Shown here piece by piece: positions 3,227 through 11,972 of a stretch of 64,000 nt of DNA. The stretch is from contig NZ_MPDK01000007.1 of NCBI RefSeq assembly GCF_003144315.1, positions 62,001 through 126,000 on the forward strand. The letters run 5' to 3'. The translations under genes were made by a program, and so were the position numbers. Position 1 is the stretch's first letter. Each line of letters begins with the position of its first letter. The stretch comes from Sulfoacidibacillus thermotolerans (GTDB taxonomy: Bacteria > Bacillota > Bacilli > Alicyclobacillales > SLC66). A model generated the notes under the pieces. That model was not told the DNA's origin. It ran no database searches and saw only the letters and a program-made list of their open reading frames with translations.

Positions 3227-4528
3227 GTGAGTGTAAAAGAACATGACATTCTTTATGGAAAAAAACAGCGCCATTTTCGGGATATTCCCCTTTGGAAAGA
3301 CGTTACGGATGAGCAATGGAATGATTGGAAATGGCAATTGACGCACACGATTGATACAGTTGAAGATCTAGGGCAAGTAATCCATCTGACAGAGGCGGAA
3401 ATTCAAGGAATCAGTCGTGCGGGGAAAGACTCCATCCCGTTACGAATTACACCTTACTATGCGATGCTGATGGATCCAGATGATCCGAATTGCCCGATTC
3501 GTTTGCAAGCTGTGCCCATTTCGACAGAACTCACCCGTTCGCCCTGGGATATGGAGGATCCATTACATGAAGACGAGGATGCCCCGGCGCCTGGCCTGAC
3601 ACATCGCTATCCGGATCGAGTCCTCTTTCTAATTACCAATCAATGTTCTATGTACTGTCGCCACTGTACGCGCAGGCGCTTTTCTGGGCAAGTGGGCCAT
3701 GCAGTGCCTAAACCACAACTTGATGCGGCGATTGATTATATTCGACGCACACCACAAATCCGTGACGTTTTACTTTCTGGCGGCGATGGGCTACTTGTGA
3801 ATGACCGTATTCTTGAATACATCATATCGAGTTTACGAGCAATTCCTCACGTGGAGATTATCCGAATTGGTACGCGGGCACCTGTCGTTTTCCCACAACG
3901 CATTACAGAAAATCTTTGTAATATATTAAAGAAATATCATCCAGTTTGGTTAAATACGCATTTCAATCATCCGGATGAGATTACTCCTGAGGCGAAAAAA
4001 GCGTGTGAAATGTTGGTAGACGCTGGAGTGCCAGTGGGCAATCAGAGTGTTTTGTTGCGCGGGGTGAACGATTGTACTCACGTGATGAAGGATTTGTTGC
4101 ACCAATTAGTGAAAATTCGGGTACGTCCTTATTACTTATATCAATGTGATTTATCTGAAGGCATCGAGCACTTTCGCACGACCGTTTCGAAAGGAATCGA
4201 GATTATGGAAGAATTGCGCGGTCATACGTCAGGATATGCGATTCCGACGTTCGTCGTAGATGCGCCGGGCGGAGGAGGGAAGATCCCTGTGATGCCGCAA
4301 TACTTAATCTCACAAGGACATGGAAAAGTCGTACTGCGTAACTTTGAAGGCGTGATATCCGTATATCATGAACCGACATATGAAGATAAAGGATGTCCGC
4401 CCTCTTGTAAGCATGACCATCAAGAAGAAACGATTGGTGTGGCTAAATTGCTGCACAACCAAGCGGTCAGCTTGGAACCGCAAGGTTTAAAGCGAGCTGT
4501 GGCGCACCGCCATCATGAAGAGGGATAA
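3227..4528 (+). CDS. kamA: L-lysine 2,3-aminomutase (radical SAM)
   Basis: Converts L-lysine to L-beta-lysine using a [4Fe-4S] cluster, S-adenosylmethionine and PLP; first step of the pathway. 433 residues, normal for the family. The radical SAM motif CSMYCRHC starts at residue 140 (Cys140, 144, 147). Other family stretches are RYPDRVLFLITNQC, LSGGDGLL, IRIGTRAP, NTHFNHP and the C-terminal DAPGGGGKIP. The GTG start follows GGGGGAGGG. It is the second gene after the sigma-54 promoter, 30 bases from kdd. The related glutamate and arginine 2,3-aminomutases are possible in principle, but the kamBCDE neighbours make lysine by far the best reading. Confidence 0.95.
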   Translation: MSVKEHDILYGKKQRHFRDIPLWKDVTDEQWNDWKWQLTHTIDTVEDLGQVIHLTEAEIQGISRAGKDSIPLRITPYYAMLMDPDDPNCPIRLQAVPISTELTRSPWDMEDPLHEDEDAPAPGLTHRYPDRVLFLITNQCSMYCRHCTRRRFSGQVGHAVPKPQLDAAIDYIRRTPQIRDVLLSGGDGLLVNDRILEYIISSLRAIPHVEIIRIGTRAPVVFPQRITENLCNILKKYHPVWLNTHFNHPDEITPEAKKACEMLVDAGVPVGNQSVLLRGVNDCTHVMKDLLHQLVKIRVRPYYLYQCDLSEGIEHFRTTVSKGIEIMEELRGHTSGYAIPTFVVDAPGGGGKIPVMPQYLISQGHGKVVLRNFEGVISVYHEPTYEDKGCPPSCKHDHQEETIGVAKLLHNQAVSLEPQGLKRAVAHRHHEEG

Positions 4529-4533
4529 AAGCT

Positions 4534-5598
4534 GTGAGTCGCCGGGAGAAAGCAAGCATGTGGAAGCGTATAGATGAACTCGCCGTCCGCGACCTTGCAA
4601 TCGTTGGCGTGAGTAAACACGCAGGGAAGACGACTGCGTTGAATCGCTTAATTCAGGACGCCGCCTTAACTAAGCGGCGTCTCGCTATTGCAAGTATCGG
4701 GATTGATGGGGAGCGCGCCGATCATGTACTTGGCACAGTTAAACCAGAAATTTGGGTCCCAGCTCACACGCTGTTTGCTACTGCGGGATCTGTAATGTCT
4801 ACCGCGAGTGCGGCGGTTGAGTGGAAAGTACCGACAGGCATCTATTCACCTCTAGGTGAAGTATGGATTGGTGAAACCATCACACAAGGGACGATTTGTT
4901 TGGCTGGGGTCAGACAATTGGCCCACTTACTCACTGTAAAAGAGATATTTCGTAAGTTTGCTGTAGATCATATCCTCTTTGACGGCGCGTTATCCCGTCT
5001 GATTGCCACTCATCCTCTCGTGTCTGATGGAGTGATTGTATCAACGGGGGCTGTTGTCGGTCCGCTTTCTGAAGTGGTGAAAGTGACGCAGGGAATTTTG
5101 CGCAAGTTAAATTTGCCTGCGTTTCCTGACCCATTTTTAAGGGAATTACCGATAGACGACGCTGGGGTTTTTGTGGGGAAAATGTTCCCTCGAGTGGATC
5201 ATGCAGATCATTTCAGTGAATTTGAATTGGGAGAGATCGAACATTATCCCAATGCGAGTGCATTTACTGTGGATATACGAGGACAGGTGGCGTTAACCGA
5301 AGAGCATCGTTTATTTATCTATGGCGGAGCCGTCACTGACGGTGTGCTCCGTGGGTTGCAGAGTCGAAAGGCGCCTGTTTTTGTAGTTGCAGCGACACCT
5401 GCTCATGTGTTTGTATCTGATCTTGCTTGGCGGTCGTTTACTCGTGCCGGACACCATCTTTTCGTGCGCTTTGCGACACGAGTGATTGGGGTTACAGTGA
5501 ATCCGACTTCTCCGAAGGGGACGATGATCGATCGGGAGCAACTCCTGCGGGGAATCGAATCGCTTACGGACGTTCCAGTATGGGATGTGATGGAGTAG
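4534..5598 (+). CDS. kamB: KamB-like P-loop protein of the lysine 5,6-aminomutase cluster
   Basis: 354 residues with a P-loop GVSKHAGKTT near residues 24-33. The gene sits between kamA and the MutS-like gene as in clostridial kamABCDE clusters. Its biochemical role is not established to my knowledge; together with KamC it is usually assumed to help assemble or reactivate the B12-dependent aminomutase (inference from constant co-occurrence). No membrane segment. Start: GTG 4534 behind GAGGGATAA; ATG 4558 behind GGGAG is an alternative. It ends directly before the kamC ATG with no intergenic base. The symbol rests on position as well as sequence. Confidence 0.75.
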   Translation: MSRREKASMWKRIDELAVRDLAIVGVSKHAGKTTALNRLIQDAALTKRRLAIASIGIDGERADHVLGTVKPEIWVPAHTLFATAGSVMSTASAAVEWKVPTGIYSPLGEVWIGETITQGTICLAGVRQLAHLLTVKEIFRKFAVDHILFDGALSRLIATHPLVSDGVIVSTGAVVGPLSEVVKVTQGILRKLNLPAFPDPFLRELPIDDAGVFVGKMFPRVDHADHFSEFELGEIEHYPNASAFTVDIRGQVALTEEHRLFIYGGAVTDGVLRGLQSRKAPVFVVAATPAHVFVSDLAWRSFTRAGHHLFVRFATRVIGVTVNPTSPKGTMIDREQLLRGIESLTDVPVWDVME

Positions 5599-7215
5599 AT
5601 GCAAAAGCCATTTTTAAATCAATGGACCTACGAGCAAATCCAATTTTCGACTGTGCAGGCGATGGTAAAACCACTGACTGCAGCTGGGCAACGCTTAGCT
5701 CGATCAAGAACACCGTTTTTATGTGGGGATGAAGCACTGTGGTTGGCAGATCAAGAAGACGCACATAAGCTTTCTGCCGCGCTCTCACTCCCGCAGCGAA
5801 ATGGGAAAGAATTGCGCGCAAACGTAGTGGCTCAGTTTATGTCGATGCCAGACCTGGAAGAAATTTTACGTTTATTACAACATGGTGAATCCTTGTTTCT
5901 CGAGCATATGGCGAACCTCAAACGCTTTTTCTACTTTGCTTGGCAACTTGGTGGGTATTTGCGTGAAGCAGACTTACACTTTGTCTGGTGGAATATCGAT
6001 GCGGTGCCGCTTCTATCCTGTTTACAACAATCTGGATCAGCATTCACACCCACTTTTTCACTCGTCGAAGTAGGGGATGTCAGGCTGCGTGAAGCGCGTG
6101 CTGAACTAGAAGCGACGATACAAAAGCGGGGACAGCTTGAGTACGCCTTTTTAAATCAACTGAAAGAGCGGTATAAAATCTCGTTACGTCGCGATCAAAC
6201 GCTGGTGATTGGTCTTGACTATGTCGATCTTTTACAACAAGCGCGGTCAGATCCTCAGTTGCAAATGCGCATGCAAACGATGTTTGAAGTGGTCTTTGCA
6301 CCGATTTGGCCATCTGAGCGCGATGCTTGGATCGAGTTAGAAGCGAAACAGCGCGCAGACATAGCAGAGCTTGAACAGTCTTCCTTGCAAATGCTTACGC
6401 AACGGCTATTCCCTCTGCGTGAACGCATCGTTGCCCTTGTAAATCAAGTTGCACATTTAGACGAGTTGCTCGCGCGCGTCGCTGTGCATAAAGACCGCGG
6501 GTATACATGGACGGCATTATCATCCCATGACATTCAGTTAGTCGGCGGGTATCCGGTAGAGCATCCCGAGTTTACACCCATTGATTTAACCTTACACAAC
6601 TCGATTTCCGTATTGACAGGCCCCAATATGGGAGGGAAAACGGCGGCGCTTAAAACGGTACTTACTGCGCTTGTTTGTCACCACTATGGGTACCCGGCAC
6701 CCGTGACTGCATTTTTTGCACCATTATATGCACATGTGCGTTATGTAGGTGGGGATGCTCAATCCTTGCAATCTGGATTGTCTTCCTTTGGGGCTGAAAT
6801 CGTTGCAATTCAAGAAGCGCAGAGTTTGCCAACTGCGTTTGTTTGTTTTGATGAAGTGGGGCGCAGCACAAATCCTATAGAAGGAGCGGCCTTAATCGAG
6901 GCGATTTTGCGTGAAGCACAAGTCGCGATGCAGAGCCAAATTCTCTGTGCGACGCACTTTCCGATTCGTTTGCAAGCACCAGTTTCCTATTTTCGTATAA
7001 AGGGGGTTCAAATGGATAAACTTCCCCTGGATCAAGTAGTAGAGGATTTATCAAAGCGTCTCGCTCTATTGCAGGAAGCGATGGATTACCACATAGTTGA
7101 GCAAACGTCAGGCGACGTTCCGCAGGAAGGATTGACGATTGCGAAGTGGCTAGGACTTTCTGATTCCGTCGTGCAAACTGCAGAGAGCCTTGTAAGAGGG
7201 AAAAAGAAGGGTTGA
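5599..7215 (+). CDS. kamC: KamC-like MutS-family ATPase
   Basis: 538 residues. The C-terminal half is a MutS-type ATPase: Walker A LTGPNMGGKTAALK (about residue 340) and Walker B CFDEVGRSTNP (about 415), where mismatch-repair MutS has DEIGRGTS. The N-terminal half is mostly helical and lacks the MutS mismatch-recognition domain (no Phe-X-Glu motif seen), so DNA repair is unlikely. Such proteins are regularly encoded with lysine 5,6- or ornithine 4,5-aminomutase and are thought to serve enzyme maintenance. The ATG follows the kamB stop without a gap. Symbol by family and position. Confidence 0.8.
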   Translation: MQKPFLNQWTYEQIQFSTVQAMVKPLTAAGQRLARSRTPFLCGDEALWLADQEDAHKLSAALSLPQRNGKELRANVVAQFMSMPDLEEILRLLQHGESLFLEHMANLKRFFYFAWQLGGYLREADLHFVWWNIDAVPLLSCLQQSGSAFTPTFSLVEVGDVRLREARAELEATIQKRGQLEYAFLNQLKERYKISLRRDQTLVIGLDYVDLLQQARSDPQLQMRMQTMFEVVFAPIWPSERDAWIELEAKQRADIAELEQSSLQMLTQRLFPLRERIVALVNQVAHLDELLARVAVHKDRGYTWTALSSHDIQLVGGYPVEHPEFTPIDLTLHNSISVLTGPNMGGKTAALKTVLTALVCHHYGYPAPVTAFFAPLYAHVRYVGGDAQSLQSGLSSFGAEIVAIQEAQSLPTAFVCFDEVGRSTNPIEGAALIEAILREAQVAMQSQILCATHFPIRLQAPVSYFRIKGVQMDKLPLDQVVEDLSKRLALLQEAMDYHIVEQTSGDVPQEGLTIAKWLGLSDSVVQTAESLVRGKKKG

Positions 7216-7253
7216 AAAATGAGGAAGGCATGTAGGATGAAGGGGTGATTTTG

Positions 7254-8864
7254 GTGAGTAGCAAGTTATATCTTGATCCGCAATTGATTGATCAAGCGCG
7301 TCAATATGCGTCAGCGATTGCCGATGATGTTGCGCGTTTTATCGCAGATAAAACAACTGTTGCGACGGAGCGTACCGTCTTGCGCTTATTGGGACTTGAT
7401 GGTGTTGATGCAGAATATGTTCCATTGCCAAATGTAGTTGTAGACCATGTTCACGATCGCGGACAATTGCAACATGGAATTGCGCGGTTTGTGATCAATG
7501 GCATGATCCAAACAGGATGGTCGATCCAACAACTTGGTGAGGCAGTAGCTTCAGGGGCAATAGATTTATTAGCCTTACCGATGGCGCCTGAGAGTGAGTT
7601 AATCGATCTTGGCAAGCAGGCTGCAGACGCTGCACTTGCTAAAATTCGCGCGAATCGTGAGCGACGTGATCAACTTTTACAGAAACTTGGAGAAGGGCCA
7701 CAGCCGTATATTTATGTGATCGTTGCTACAGGGAATATATATGAGGATGTTATCCAAGCGCGCGCTGCGGCCCGCCAAGGCGCTGATATTATTGCAGTGA
7801 TTCGCAGTACAGGCCAAAGTTTACTCGATTATGTGCCCTTTGGCGCGACGACAGAAGGATTTGGCGGTACGTACGCAACGCAGGAGAACTTTAAGATTAT
7901 GCGGGCGGCTCTAGATGAAGTCGGGGAAGAGATCGGCCGCTATATACGACTGTGTAATTATTGCTCCGGGTTGTGTATGCCGGAGATTGCTGCTATGGGT
8001 GCACTTGAACGGTTAGATGTCATGCTAAATGATGCACTCTATGGAATTTTATTTCGCGATATCAATATGCAACGAACCTTGATCGACCAAAACTTCAGTC
8101 GCATGATTAATGCGTATGCAGGGGTCATTATCAATACGGGGGAGGACAATTATTTAACCACTGCAGATGCTGTAGAGGCGGCGCATACAGTGCTTGCCTC
8201 TCAATTAATCAATGAGCAGTTGGCGTATCGCTCAGGATTGCGCGCGAATCAATTAGGATTAGGCCATGCATTTGAAATGAATCCCATGATCGAAGATGGA
8301 TTTTTACTTGAATGGGCACAAGCATTGATGGCTCGGGAAATATTCCCTGAAGCGCCCCTTAAATACATGCCACCTACAAAACATATGACAGGAAATATTT
8401 TTCGAGGTCATGTGCAAGATGCTCTCTTCAATTTGATTGGGATTGCAACTGGCCAAGGAATCCAATTATTGGGAATGATGACAGAAGCGATTCACACGCC
8501 ACTCATTCATGATCGGCAACTTGCCATTGAATCTGCAAAGTACATTTTCAATAATGCACGCCATTTGCAAGATGAACTGGAATTTAAACGCGATGGATTG
8601 ATGGTCAAACGCGCAGCACAAGTGTTAGAAGAGGCAGTTACACTGTTGCGTGAGATCACACAAAAGGGACTTTTTAACGCCATCTCTGAAGGGATGTTTG
8701 CAGATGTAAAGCGTGCGATTACAGGAGGCAAAGGACTAAAAGGCGTGCTTGTGCGATCACAACAGTATTTCAATCCACTGGAAACGGCTTTGCGAACAGA
8801 ACTAGGGTTACCTCCAATCGAGAGTTTGCTTGCGTCAACGCCTAATGAAAAAAGGGGAGAATGA
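7254..8864 (+). CDS. kamD: Lysine 5,6-aminomutase, alpha subunit
   Basis: Large subunit of the adenosylcobalamin- and PLP-dependent mutase that moves the terminal amino group of beta-lysine (or D-lysine) to C5, giving 3,5-diaminohexanoate. 536 residues, as expected for KamD, a TIM-barrel subunit. Recognisable stretches include VVATGNIYEDV, ARQGADIIAVIRSTGQS, EGFGGTYATQENFKIMR and YCSGLCMPEIA. GTG 7254 is preferred to GTG 7245 because AAGGGGTGAT (7240-7249), a near-ideal ribosome-binding site, overlaps the earlier codon. It overlaps kamE by four bases (ATGA), fitting stoichiometric synthesis. Confidence 0.94.
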   Translation: MSSKLYLDPQLIDQARQYASAIADDVARFIADKTTVATERTVLRLLGLDGVDAEYVPLPNVVVDHVHDRGQLQHGIARFVINGMIQTGWSIQQLGEAVASGAIDLLALPMAPESELIDLGKQAADAALAKIRANRERRDQLLQKLGEGPQPYIYVIVATGNIYEDVIQARAAARQGADIIAVIRSTGQSLLDYVPFGATTEGFGGTYATQENFKIMRAALDEVGEEIGRYIRLCNYCSGLCMPEIAAMGALERLDVMLNDALYGILFRDINMQRTLIDQNFSRMINAYAGVIINTGEDNYLTTADAVEAAHTVLASQLINEQLAYRSGLRANQLGLGHAFEMNPMIEDGFLLEWAQALMAREIFPEAPLKYMPPTKHMTGNIFRGHVQDALFNLIGIATGQGIQLLGMMTEAIHTPLIHDRQLAIESAKYIFNNARHLQDELEFKRDGLMVKRAAQVLEEAVTLLREITQKGLFNAISEGMFADVKRAITGGKGLKGVLVRSQQYFNPLETALRTELGLPPIESLLASTPNEKRGE

Positions 8865-9619
8865 GTGTGCGAGACTTCAAACATGTGCGACCTTATGGCG
8901 ATACATTTAATGATGGTGTCGTGCAGTTTAGCTTCTCTTTACCTGTTCCCTTTGGCGAAGAGGCAAAGGAAGCTGCACGGCAATTTGTTGCAAAGATGGG
9001 GGTCCTAGAGCCGCGCGTTGTGCATAGTCAGGATCTAGGGGAAGAGATGACATTTTTCGTCGTCTATGGGAATGCGCCGTTTGAAATTGACTTTACAAGT
9101 ATAAAAGTTCCTAAAGTAGAGAGTCCCGTGATGGACTTTTACGAAATCAACCAGTTTATTCGCGAGCAAATCGGGCGTAAAATTGTTGTCATTGGTGCAT
9201 GTACAGGAACAGATGCACATACAGTCGGCATTGATGCGATTATGAACATGAAAGGATATGCAGGTGAATATGGACTTGAGCGCTATCCTGAGATTCAGGC
9301 GTATAATCTAGGGAGCCAAGTACAGAACGAAGAGATGGTCCGAAAGGCGATCGAACTTCAGGCCGATGCGATTCTTGTTTCCCAAGTGGTCACGCAAAAG
9401 GATGTTCATATTCCTAATTTAGGGGAACTTGTCGATTTGCTTGAGGCCGAAGGTCTGCGCAAGCGAATCGTGCTGATCTGTGGAGGGCCGCGGATTAGTC
9501 ACGAGTTAGCCCTTGAGTTAGGGTATGATGCGGGTTTTGGACCTGGGACGCTGGCGCCTGAAGTGGCATCGTTTATCGTCCACGAAATCGTTAAGCGTAA
9601 GTTGGCTTTCCACGAATGA
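8861..9619 (+). CDS. kamE: Lysine 5,6-aminomutase, beta (B12-binding) subunit
   Basis: Small subunit binding adenosylcobalamin and PLP. 252 residues with the B12-binding DxHxxG motif as D118-A-H120-T-V-G123, and a Lys (K131 in MNMKG) at the position that forms the PLP aldimine in the clostridial enzyme. The Rossmann-like cobalamin domain fills the C-terminal half (GACTGTDAHT, LVSQVVTQKD, CGGPRISHE). ATGA overlap with kamD. The next gene in the same direction, 16 bases on, is the UGA-containing glutaredoxin-like gene. Confidence 0.95.
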   Translation: MSVRDFKHVRPYGDTFNDGVVQFSFSLPVPFGEEAKEAARQFVAKMGVLEPRVVHSQDLGEEMTFFVVYGNAPFEIDFTSIKVPKVESPVMDFYEINQFIREQIGRKIVVIGACTGTDAHTVGIDAIMNMKGYAGEYGLERYPEIQAYNLGSQVQNEEMVRKAIELQADAILVSQVVTQKDVHIPNLGELVDLLEAEGLRKRIVLICGGPRISHELALELGYDAGFGPGTLAPEVASFIVHEIVKRKLAFHE

Positions 9620-9635
9620 GATGAGGCGATGACAA

Positions 9636-9872
9636 ATGCATGTCATTTTATATTCTCAGGCTACTTGACAGAAGTGTCAGGTAGCCAAGGTTTGGCTTGG
9701 GCGTTTAAAAATCCCCTTTGAAATTCGCGATATCTATGGTACAAAGGGTGCAGTAGAGGAGTTAACGCGTCTTGGGATTTCATCAGTTCCTGCCTTTCGA
9801 ATTGGAGATGTGTGGATTGAAGGGTTCAAACCTTTAGAAATCCTCGAAGTCGTAGCTTCTCAACACGAATGA
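9636..9872 (+). CDS. Glutaredoxin-like selenoprotein with in-frame UGA (Sec11)
   Basis: Reading ATG 9636 through one in-frame TGA (9666-9668) to TGA 9870-9872 gives 78 residues of a small glutaredoxin/NrdH-like thiol oxidoreductase. It has beta strand HVILYSQAT, redox centre U11-Q-K-C14 where the family has C-x-x-C, helix VAKAWLGR, strand IPFEIRDI, cis-Pro loop SSVPAF and a C-terminal GDVWIEGFKPLEIL. The UGA falls exactly on the nucleophilic Cys position and the frame beyond it is intact. A GGU-loop hairpin lies 20 bases downstream, as a bacterial SECIS should. GATGAGG (9620-9626) is a suitable ribosome-binding site 16 bases after kamE. Alternative: a recent Cys-to-stop mutation. Selenocysteine machinery is not in the window. 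Confidence 0.8.
9659..9686 (+). repeat. 12-bp inverted repeat containing the UGA codon
   Basis: GGCTACTTGACA (9659-9670), loop GAAG, TGTCAGGTAGCC (9675-9686): twelve pairs with one G-T wobble. The UGA (9666-9668) is within the 5' arm. The 3' arm shares bases 9683-9686 with the GGU-loop hairpin, so the two structures exclude each other. No T-run follows, so it is not a terminator. Confidence 0.6.
9683..9697 (+). promoter_or_regulatory. Putative bacterial SECIS hairpin
   Basis: AGCCAA (9683-9688), apical loop GGT (9689-9691), TTGGCT (9692-9697). The loop begins 20 bases after the UGA and opens with two Gs. This agrees with the general description of bacterial SECIS elements: a short stem, G in the first two loop positions, and roughly 16-37 bases from the UGA. 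SelB would bind this loop. Confidence 0.65.
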
Positions 9873-9907
9873 ATGATTGGCCACTCATTGTTCGGGTGTC
9901 GGGAAAA

Positions 9908-9926: not shown

Positions 9927-9968
9927 GGAGTATGTTGCATCCGCATAGTGGCAATGGGGAGGAGTGAT

Positions 9969-11972
9969 TTGACTTTGCATACATTAAACATCATTGCTTT
10001 TACGATTCTCGCTGTCGCTGCTTTGTACGGATTTTTTGGGGGATTGTATCAGCGATATGAATTTCTTACTCTGGGACAACCGATTGATCGCAGCGATCGT
10101 CGGGGGGAACGATGGCGCAGTTTTGCGCAGAATGTCTTGGCGCAAGGGAAGGTGCTTGCAGAACCATCGGGAATCGGTCACTTTTCCATTTTCTGGGGAT
10201 TTATTCTACTTGGGTTTGGAGAACTGGACTTTTTCTCCTACGGGTTATTTGGAGTTCATATTCCAGGGTTTACAGCTCCATGGTTCACATTTACGCAGGA
10301 GATGTTGGCGACATTTGTCTTCGTTGCAATTGTCATAGCGGCTATTCGCCGGTATATCTGGCGGCCAATGCGGACAGAACCCACATTTGAGGCAGGATTT
10401 ATCTTATTTCTGATCTTTGCCATCGTGGTTACATTGTTTGTGGTAGGGGCATTTAGTGCATTGCAGCAAGGGAGTATGCCTGGGTCTGCGGCGCCGATGT
10501 CTAATCTTGTGGCTTCGTGGTTTGTAGGGGTAAGCCCTACGGTCGCAGGGATTGTTGTGCAACTCGCGTTTTGGATTCATACCCTAGCTATTCTGGGCTT
10601 TCTTGTCTTTATTCCGCGCTCAAAACATTTGCATATGATCGGGGCCATGTTTAATTCGTATTACCGTAACCTCGGGCCCGTTGGCAAGATTCGCTCATTG
10701 GATTTAAGTGACGAAGCGGTAGAGGAATTTGGGGTAGGGAATATCACACAATTCACTTGGAAACAGTTGCTTGATGGATATGCCTGTACGGAGTGTGGAA
10801 GATGTCATGTCAGTTGTCCAGCGACACTAACAGGAAAAGATTTGTCGCCTAAATATTTGATTCTTAAGATGAAGGATCACTTAATTGAAACGGCGCCGGC
10901 ACTGCTTGCTCAGAAAAAAATGGCAGCTGGTGCAGAAGACTTTTCACTTGCGACCGCACTTCAAGGAATGCCACAGCTCATTGGTGATGTGTATACGGAA
11001 GACGAGATCTGGGCGTGTACAACTTGTCGTGCATGTGAAGAAGCCTGTCCAGTGTATAATGAGCATGTGAGTCTCATTGTAGATATGCGTCGCAATCTTG
11101 TCTTGACGCAAGGGAGTGCACCAGGCGAAGTAAACCGCACATTTACGAATCTGGAGCGTCATTCAAATGAATGGGGGCGTCCACGTTCCGCCCGCGCCGA
11201 ATGGGCAGAAGGGCTTGATATCCCGTTGATGTCAGAACTAGAGGAACCTGTTGAATACTTGTACTACGTGGGGACTGCGGCTTCATTTGATGTGCGCAAT
11301 CAAAAAATTGCACGCGCTTTTGCTCAACTACTCAAACGGGCTGGCGTGAGCTTTGCGATTTTGGGGAAAGAAGAAGAGAGCGATGGAGATTCTGCTCGGC
11401 GTTTGGGGAATGAATTTTTGTATCAGGAATTGGTCGAGCGCAACATCGAAATTTTTAAGGAATATGGGATAAAGAAGATCATTACGACAGATCCACACGC
11501 CTATAATGCGTTTCGCAAAGAATACGTAGATTTTGGGTTTGAAGCTGAAGTGATTCATCATACAGAGCTTCTTGCACAGTTGATTGAGCAAGGGAAACTG
11601 CAGCCAAGTAAACGTGTAGAACGTAAAATCACTTATCATGATTCTTGTTATTTAGGTCGTTACAACGGAGTTTATTCAGCACCACGCTACATTTTAAGCA
11701 AAATTCCGGGTCTTGAGCTTGTTGAGATGGAGCGTAACCGCAACAAGAGTATGTGTTGCGGGGCCGGGGGCGGATCGATGTTCAAAGAAGAGACGGGTGA
11801 GCAACGCATTAATGTATTTCGCACCGAACAGGCTTTGGAGACGGGTGCAACAGCCATTGCGACAGCCTGCCCGTACTGTATGACGATGATGATCGACGGG
11901 ACCAAGGCAAAAGGTGTGGAAGATGAGATCGACACTTACGACATTGCAGAGTTGCTGTTGCAGGCCATCTAG
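9969..11972 (+). CDS. Membrane Fe-S oxidoreductase (ETF:menaquinone oxidoreductase-like)
   Basis: About 667 residues. N-terminal NarI-like membrane part with about five to six helices (to about residue 240) and His residues suited to b-heme. Then two ferredoxin-type [4Fe-4S] motifs (CTECGRCHVSCP, CTTCRACEEACP) and two HdrD/GlpC-type CCG regions. The second CCG is intact (DSCYLG, MCCGAGGG, ACPYC). In the first, all five ligands are replaced (Thr436, Ser471-Asp472, Asp508, Ala511). Related proteins (B. subtilis YwjF/FadF, syntrophic EMO) pass electrons from ETF to menaquinone; the acyl-CoA dehydrogenases downstream fit. Start: TTG 9969 behind GGGGAGGAGTGAT; GTG 9948 is upstream of that site. 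Exact partner is inferred. Confidence 0.85.
   Translation: MTLHTLNIIAFTILAVAALYGFFGGLYQRYEFLTLGQPIDRSDRRGERWRSFAQNVLAQGKVLAEPSGIGHFSIFWGFILLGFGELDFFSYGLFGVHIPGFTAPWFTFTQEMLATFVFVAIVIAAIRRYIWRPMRTEPTFEAGFILFLIFAIVVTLFVVGAFSALQQGSMPGSAAPMSNLVASWFVGVSPTVAGIVVQLAFWIHTLAILGFLVFIPRSKHLHMIGAMFNSYYRNLGPVGKIRSLDLSDEAVEEFGVGNITQFTWKQLLDGYACTECGRCHVSCPATLTGKDLSPKYLILKMKDHLIETAPALLAQKKMAAGAEDFSLATALQGMPQLIGDVYTEDEIWACTTCRACEEACPVYNEHVSLIVDMRRNLVLTQGSAPGEVNRTFTNLERHSNEWGRPRSARAEWAEGLDIPLMSELEEPVEYLYYVGTAASFDVRNQKIARAFAQLLKRAGVSFAILGKEEESDGDSARRLGNEFLYQELVERNIEIFKEYGIKKIITTDPHAYNAFRKEYVDFGFEAEVIHHTELLAQLIEQGKLQPSKRVERKITYHDSCYLGRYNGVYSAPRYILSKIPGLELVEMERNRNKSMCCGAGGGSMFKEETGEQRINVFRTEQALETGATAIATACPYCMTMMIDGTKAKGVEDEIDTYDIAELLLQAI

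Follow-up and report, generated by a model that had tools for sequence, protein, structure and literature searches.

The frame that directly follows kamE in the window (the whole 64,000-nt stretch of DNA analysed here) carries an in-frame TGA at its eleventh codon. This raises the question of whether the TGA ends a short relic or is read as selenocysteine (Sec) in a small redox protein and, if the latter, what such a protein may do beside genes of lysine degradation. An earlier note on this DNA had proposed a probable selenoprotein of the glutaredoxin type, and the sel genes of the genome, the exchange of TGA and Cys codons among relatives and a hairpin past the UGA are all favourable to that proposal. 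On this sequence evidence, the frame very probably encodes a selenoprotein glutaredoxin with UGA-11 as Sec; this degree of confidence applies to the Sec-glutaredoxin itself and excludes any lysine-specific role.

The UGA-containing frame and its decoding

The single in-frame TGA, the 78-residue frame right after kamE and their coordinates are as the earlier note gave them, and a GAGG motif fits its claim of a ribosome-binding site (Table 1). The TGA stop of kamE lies 16 nt 5' of the glutaredoxin ATG, and purine-rich sites comparable to GAGG also precede the gene in relatives. Between TGA-11 and the stop TGA there are 67 sense codons, and the readthrough product would be MHVILYSQATUQKCQVAKVWLGRLKIPFEIRDIYGTKGAVEELTRLGISSVPAFRIGDVWIEGFKPLEILEVVASQHE. 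With TGA read as Cys, this matches the Pfam family Glutaredoxin (PF00462) at 34.4 bits (cut-off 22.9), and its active site is U-Q-K-C, Sec replacing the first Cys of C-x-x-C. No conserved protein was found in the extension past the second TGA. The gene will escape callers that take every TGA for a stop.

Table 1. Features of the kam-glutaredoxin region (window positions) and the selD genes of the same genome (contig positions).
Feature	Position	Strand	Details
kamA, lysine 2,3-aminomutase (radical SAM, LAM_C)	3227..4528	+	profile search
kamB-like protein	4534..5598	+	no Pfam match; named by operon position only; conserved order
kamC-like, MutS domain V protein	5599..7215	+	profile search; conserved order
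kamD, lysine 5,6-aminomutase alpha subunit (PF09043)	7245..8864	+	profile search
kamE, B12-binding subunit of lysine 5,6-aminomutase (PF16554, PF02310)	8861..9619	+	stop 9617-9619
GAGG, putative ribosome-binding site	9623..9626	+	9 nt 5' of ATG, just past kamE stop; from sequence
Predicted Sec-glutaredoxin gene	9636..9872	+	78 residues; ATG 9636; stop TGA 9870-9872; internal TGA probably read as selenocysteine; PF00462; 8 genomes
Predicted selenocysteine codon, TGA (codon 11)	9666..9668	+	first position of U-x-x-C; aligned to TGC in G559, G579, G589, G608
SECIS-like hairpin AGCCAA-GGT-TTGGCT	9683..9697 (loop 9689-9691)	+	6 bp; loop 20 nt past UGA
Fe-S oxidoreductase (4Fe-4S dicluster + CCG domain)	9948..11972	+	next gene downstream; start codon putative
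selD copy L097	G000:C24:39787-40713		in-frame UGA
selD copy L098	C59:53271-54197		in-frame UGA

The same TGA glutaredoxin is found behind kam genes in eight genomes (the window's and seven further ones) belonging to four genera (g1, g2, g4, g5) of one family. The seven further copies show 44-82% identity with the frame intact after the TGA, which bears out the absence of frame decay claimed for the window; no decayed frame was seen in relatives. Public contig JAKACV010000002.1 (L049) and G002 contig C98 probably come from one assembly, so the former was left out of the independent count. Residues invariant among the eight kam-linked copies include both active-site positions and Pro52. For the codons past the TGA, dN/dS is 0.171, 0.165 and 0.124 in pairs among G000 (the window's genome), G001 and G002, 0.085 for G006-G013 and 0.109 for G005-G012, the values being rough in two of these close pairs because dS exceeds 1. 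By this codon measure, the frame 3' of the TGA is under purifying selection in close pairs.

A search through the whole class added nearer relatives from two other families. The position of codon 11 is TGA in G568, G578 and G597 (two copies) and TGC in four genomes (Table 1), giving totals at the active-site codon of TGA in 12 copies and TGC in four close relatives. Both Cys and TGA, for which the earlier note had suggested searching relatives, thus occur, and the in-frame UGA of the window glutaredoxin aligns with the first Cys of the C-x-x-C centre of its homologues. A maximum-likelihood tree built from 33 short sequences (75 alignment columns, many forks unresolved) places the kam-linked copies in one clade (support 97/97) beside the TGA and TGC relatives. 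The two TGA copies of G597 related to that of the window are located on separate contigs (L185 and L186).

The window's genome (2.87 Mb, 99.9% complete, draft in 135 contigs) contains all four sel genes over curated cut-offs: selA (585 bits), selB (368 bits), the tRNA-Sec gene selC (65 bits, anticodon tca) and two copies of selD (397 and 336 bits). selA is also over its cut-off in all of the eight glutaredoxin-carrying genomes. Both selD genes of G000 contain an in-frame UGA of their own, in the contexts GUGCK and GUAAK.

Decoding of the UGA as a different, selenium-free amino acid such as Trp, through a variant code or near-cognate readthrough, would likewise yield a full-length protein. However, kamC, kamD, kamE and the glutaredoxin gene itself all end in TGA, the codon aligns with the catalytic Cys, and the genome has the full set of Sec genes; on these grounds this reading was rejected as very improbable. 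The standard code gives just 10 residues before the TGA, as would be expected of an ordinary stop followed by a decaying relic, but a relic would not keep one TGA and no other lesion across genera, nor an intact frame under purifying selection in eight genomes at the identities given above. Conservation and selection together make a pseudogene extremely improbable, and it too was rejected. A sequencing or assembly error that turned TGC or TGT into TGA is conceivable in a draft genome; the TGA is, however, also present in seven further genomes and in the TGA relatives of another family, and since it recurs in eight genomes there is no sign of the read error that the earlier note had allowed for. 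With TGA recurring in independent genomes, the chance of such an error is negligible.

A SECIS-like hairpin past the UGA

The earlier note had described the hairpin past the UGA as a good bacterial SECIS. An alignment of the 12 TGA copies needs no gaps in the 48 nt counted from the UGA, and 10 of them have the full 6-bp hairpin with its loop 20 nt past the UGA, in the variants AGCCAA, GGCCAA or GGCCAG, loop GGT or GGC, and TTGGCT or CTGGCT. In the other two the loop is larger and fewer of the six pairs are left, three in G003 and four in G005. The hairpin is missing from all four Cys copies, though a near-identical peptide (A-K-A/T-W) is encoded there by other codons. The TGA and TGC relatives therefore provide a natural test of the SECIS hairpin, which is gone where the codon is Cys and the peptide almost unchanged. 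The chance of a full hairpin arising from random synonymous codons is 0.04-0.055 per copy (A-K-x-W peptides, window codon usage), copies within one genus not being independent.

Folding of synonymous sets for eight copies together gave 0 of 500 sets as good for the stretches 12-36 nt and 14-32 nt past the UGA and 9.4% of sets as good for 9-39 nt, the result depending on the stretch folded. Covariation of the hairpin pairs was not above that of shuffles, and folding energy was dropped as support for a SECIS (z-scores against shuffles from -1.5 to +1.4 in eight copies). The hairpin alone has -5.9 kcal/mol, and -9.6 kcal/mol with a lower stem; a competing fold of the same 48-nt RNA in isolation is slightly better (-11.2 vs -9.6 kcal/mol).

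Limits given for bSECIS elements are a loop of 3-9 nt, an upper stem of 4-16 bp, a G in the first two loop positions and a distance of 16-37 nt from the UGA (PMC13188914). The window hairpin (GGT, 6 bp, 20 nt) falls within those for loop, stem and spacing, and within the energy limit (at most -7.5 kcal/mol), at -9.6 kcal/mol, only if the competing -11.2 fold is set aside. The description as a good SECIS stands for loop, stem, spacing and absence from Cys relatives; for energy the picture is ambiguous, given a slightly better competing fold. The support for the hairpin is comparative, not thermodynamic.

Fold and relation to other Sec-glutaredoxins

The AlphaFold2 model (eight aligned sequences, mean pLDDT 94.2) has the element order E-H-E-H-E-E-H of a thioredoxin fold, with residue 11 just before helix 12-23. 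Of the PDB entries, it is closest to 7c10, named dithiol cGrx1 (TM 0.84, 30% identity), which by its name is probably the Grx1 selenoprotein of Clostridium oremlandii, the entry title being silent on this. The next fold matches are thioredoxin-like protein BC3987 and NrdH redoxins, and 7c10 and NrdH are the first two hits in a sequence search of the PDB. Grx1 of Clostridium (Alkaliphilus) oremlandii resembles the window protein in fold, in its U-x-x-C centre (U13-x-x-C16) and in consisting of a single small domain, but the two are ~30% identical. C. oremlandii Grx1 regenerates the selenoprotein MsrA (PMC4479559).

No NCBIfam model reached its cut-off with the window subgroup. The best were TIGR02196 (YruB; 41.5 bits, cut-off 88.55) and TIGR02194 (NrdH; 40.5 bits, cut-off 85.75), and although NrdH is also among the best folds, these scores are less than half of the cut-offs. 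NrdH serves ribonucleotide reductase, and no gene for that enzyme was seen beside the glutaredoxin. Models of Uxx-star selenoproteins were also below cut-off (NF041212, 25.6 vs 66; NF041211, 18.5 vs 100; NF047338, 16.2 vs 97) or had no reported match to the glutaredoxin (NF041114), and in contrast to those glutaredoxin-like proteins the window centre is U-x-x-C.

Sec-glutaredoxins are an established prokaryotic selenoprotein family (PMC13188914, PMC9312934), given for Alkaliphilus, Moorella and Geobacter (PMC1794560). The window subgroup shares the family (PF00462) and the UxxC centre, but differs from other members in its motif YSQ-x-x-U-x-x-C-x-x-A-K/R-x-W and in following kam genes in one bacterial family. 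Since Sec-glutaredoxins are already known, the window protein is therefore a new divergent member and not a new protein type; of the novelty that the earlier note had seen, what survives is the place behind the kam genes. Three selenoproteins are given for Firmicutes/Bacillales (PMC1794560), and the glutaredoxin adds a well-supported one to a lineage with few on record, taking the lineage of the window as the earlier note has it.

A second, distinct Sec-glutaredoxin (YTTTQUGKCKMVKEYL...) is found in G000, on contig C48:126187-126405 (- strand; loci L044 and L057). Its relatives have TGA in G001, G002, G007, G010, G016, G032, G049, G050, G051, G053 and G056, and Cys in G036 and G040; past its UGA, the first family's hairpin cannot be seen. 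A large group of clostridial-type Sec-glutaredoxins (TUPxCxxA[KR]xFL) also occurs across the phylum, some with a Cys shortly past the domain. Unlike that of the window, the clostridial-type loci found here (L102, L103, L104, L105, L107, L110, L112, L115, L119, L122 and L124) have no kam gene within 1.5 kb.

Gene order and possible role

All eight genomes have, on one strand, a dehydrogenase-like gene, kamA, kamB, kamC, kamD, kamE and then the glutaredoxin. kamE is its immediate neighbour in seven of the eight, the exception being G003, and the Fe-S oxidoreductase is the next gene after it in six. In G006 the Fe-S gene is located 2.5 kb beyond the glutaredoxin with other frames between, and the G013 contig stops 2.6 kb past the glutaredoxin, before any Fe-S gene is reached. 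Judging from G006 and G003, moving of the Fe-S gene left the glutaredoxin beside the kam genes, and an intervening frame on the kamE side left it beside the Fe-S gene.

The intervening frame of G003 (L052, about 10120-10870, - strand) has ~140 codons (MMMQEVINATDVRKNW...), and the end of kamE (SFIVHEMVKR / NIVHEIVKR) is present on both of its sides, seemingly repeated, a pattern such as an insertion with target duplication would leave. In G006 (L054, 4111-6590) the frames that separate the glutaredoxin from the Fe-S gene are, by eye, one on the same strand resembling an AbrB-type antitoxin (MSQEMKIMTLSKITRNGQITIPKIIREKL...) and one of 353 codons on the opposite strand resembling a Fic-domain protein.

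Of the 18 genomes of the family, including the window's, 12 have kamE. Eight of these 12 also have the glutaredoxin, and it was seen in none of the six that lack kamE, some of which are incomplete. Four genomes of the same family (G008, G011, G014 and G016) have kamE without an adjoining glutaredoxin. Other kam loci of the sister family are also without it, it was not found beside kamE in 28 other kamE loci from the phylum, and the closest relatives in other families adjoin different genes (frames seen by eye). From this absence from kam loci elsewhere, the kam-glutaredoxin association appears as a trait of one family. The novelty lies in the constant location past the last kam gene, seen in only this bacterial family among those sampled; judged by title and abstract, the open-licence papers searched contained nothing relevant on a kam-linked glutaredoxin or selenoprotein.

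In the proposed mechanism, SelB with Sec-tRNA(Sec), directed by the hairpin past the codon, would read UGA-11 as Sec and not as a stop, giving a small protein with a single thioredoxin-fold domain whose task would be to reduce disulfides or other oxidised thiols. The Sec11 selenolate would attack the oxidised thiol on the target, Cys14 would resolve the mixed bond and a reductase would reset the protein. Thioredoxin reductase or bacillithiol would be the most likely source of electrons. G000 encodes bshA (528 bits) and two thioredoxin reductases over cut-off, which makes bacillithiol and thioredoxin reductase both candidate donors.

As its gene follows kamA-kamB-kamC-kamD-kamE, the glutaredoxin is probably co-produced with the lysine aminomutases, and the gene order suggests a role for it in lysine degradation. 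Its specific use may be to keep a protein of the lysine pathway or the adjoining Fe-S electron-transfer protein reduced, candidate targets being the radical SAM enzyme KamA, the B12-dependent KamDE and the Fe-S protein with its 4Fe-4S dicluster and CCG domains. The place behind kamE gives a concrete hypothesis that, if true, would make lysine degradation in these bacteria dependent on selenium. The case for a redox partner of radical SAM and B12 enzymes is drawn entirely from gene order, and that the protein is a dedicated selenium redoxin maintaining or reactivating the aminomutases or the Fe-S protein, with selenium-dependent lysine degradation, is put forward tentatively, as the sort of proposal that would fail more often than it held. 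A real Sec-glutaredoxin could instead serve thiol repair in general, its place in the kam operon being incidental and its task not specific to lysine, an alternative that opposes the proposed role and not the selenoprotein reading. The different genes beside the relatives in other families, the kam operons of the same family that lack the glutaredoxin and the second Sec-glutaredoxin elsewhere in G000 all favour general repair, whereas the confinement of the gene within the family (8/8 copies behind kamE, 0/6 in genomes without kamE) speaks against it; we give it slightly better than an even chance.

At its end, the glutaredoxin gene shares bases with an imperfect inverted repeat, AATGAATG-ATTGGC-CACTCATT (window 9868-9889). 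A search of the window for its core, with one mismatch, gave no more sites than chance. The repeat is largely kept in G001, G002, G003 and G005, between the glutaredoxin and the Fe-S oxidoreductase, and could be the operator of a regulator.
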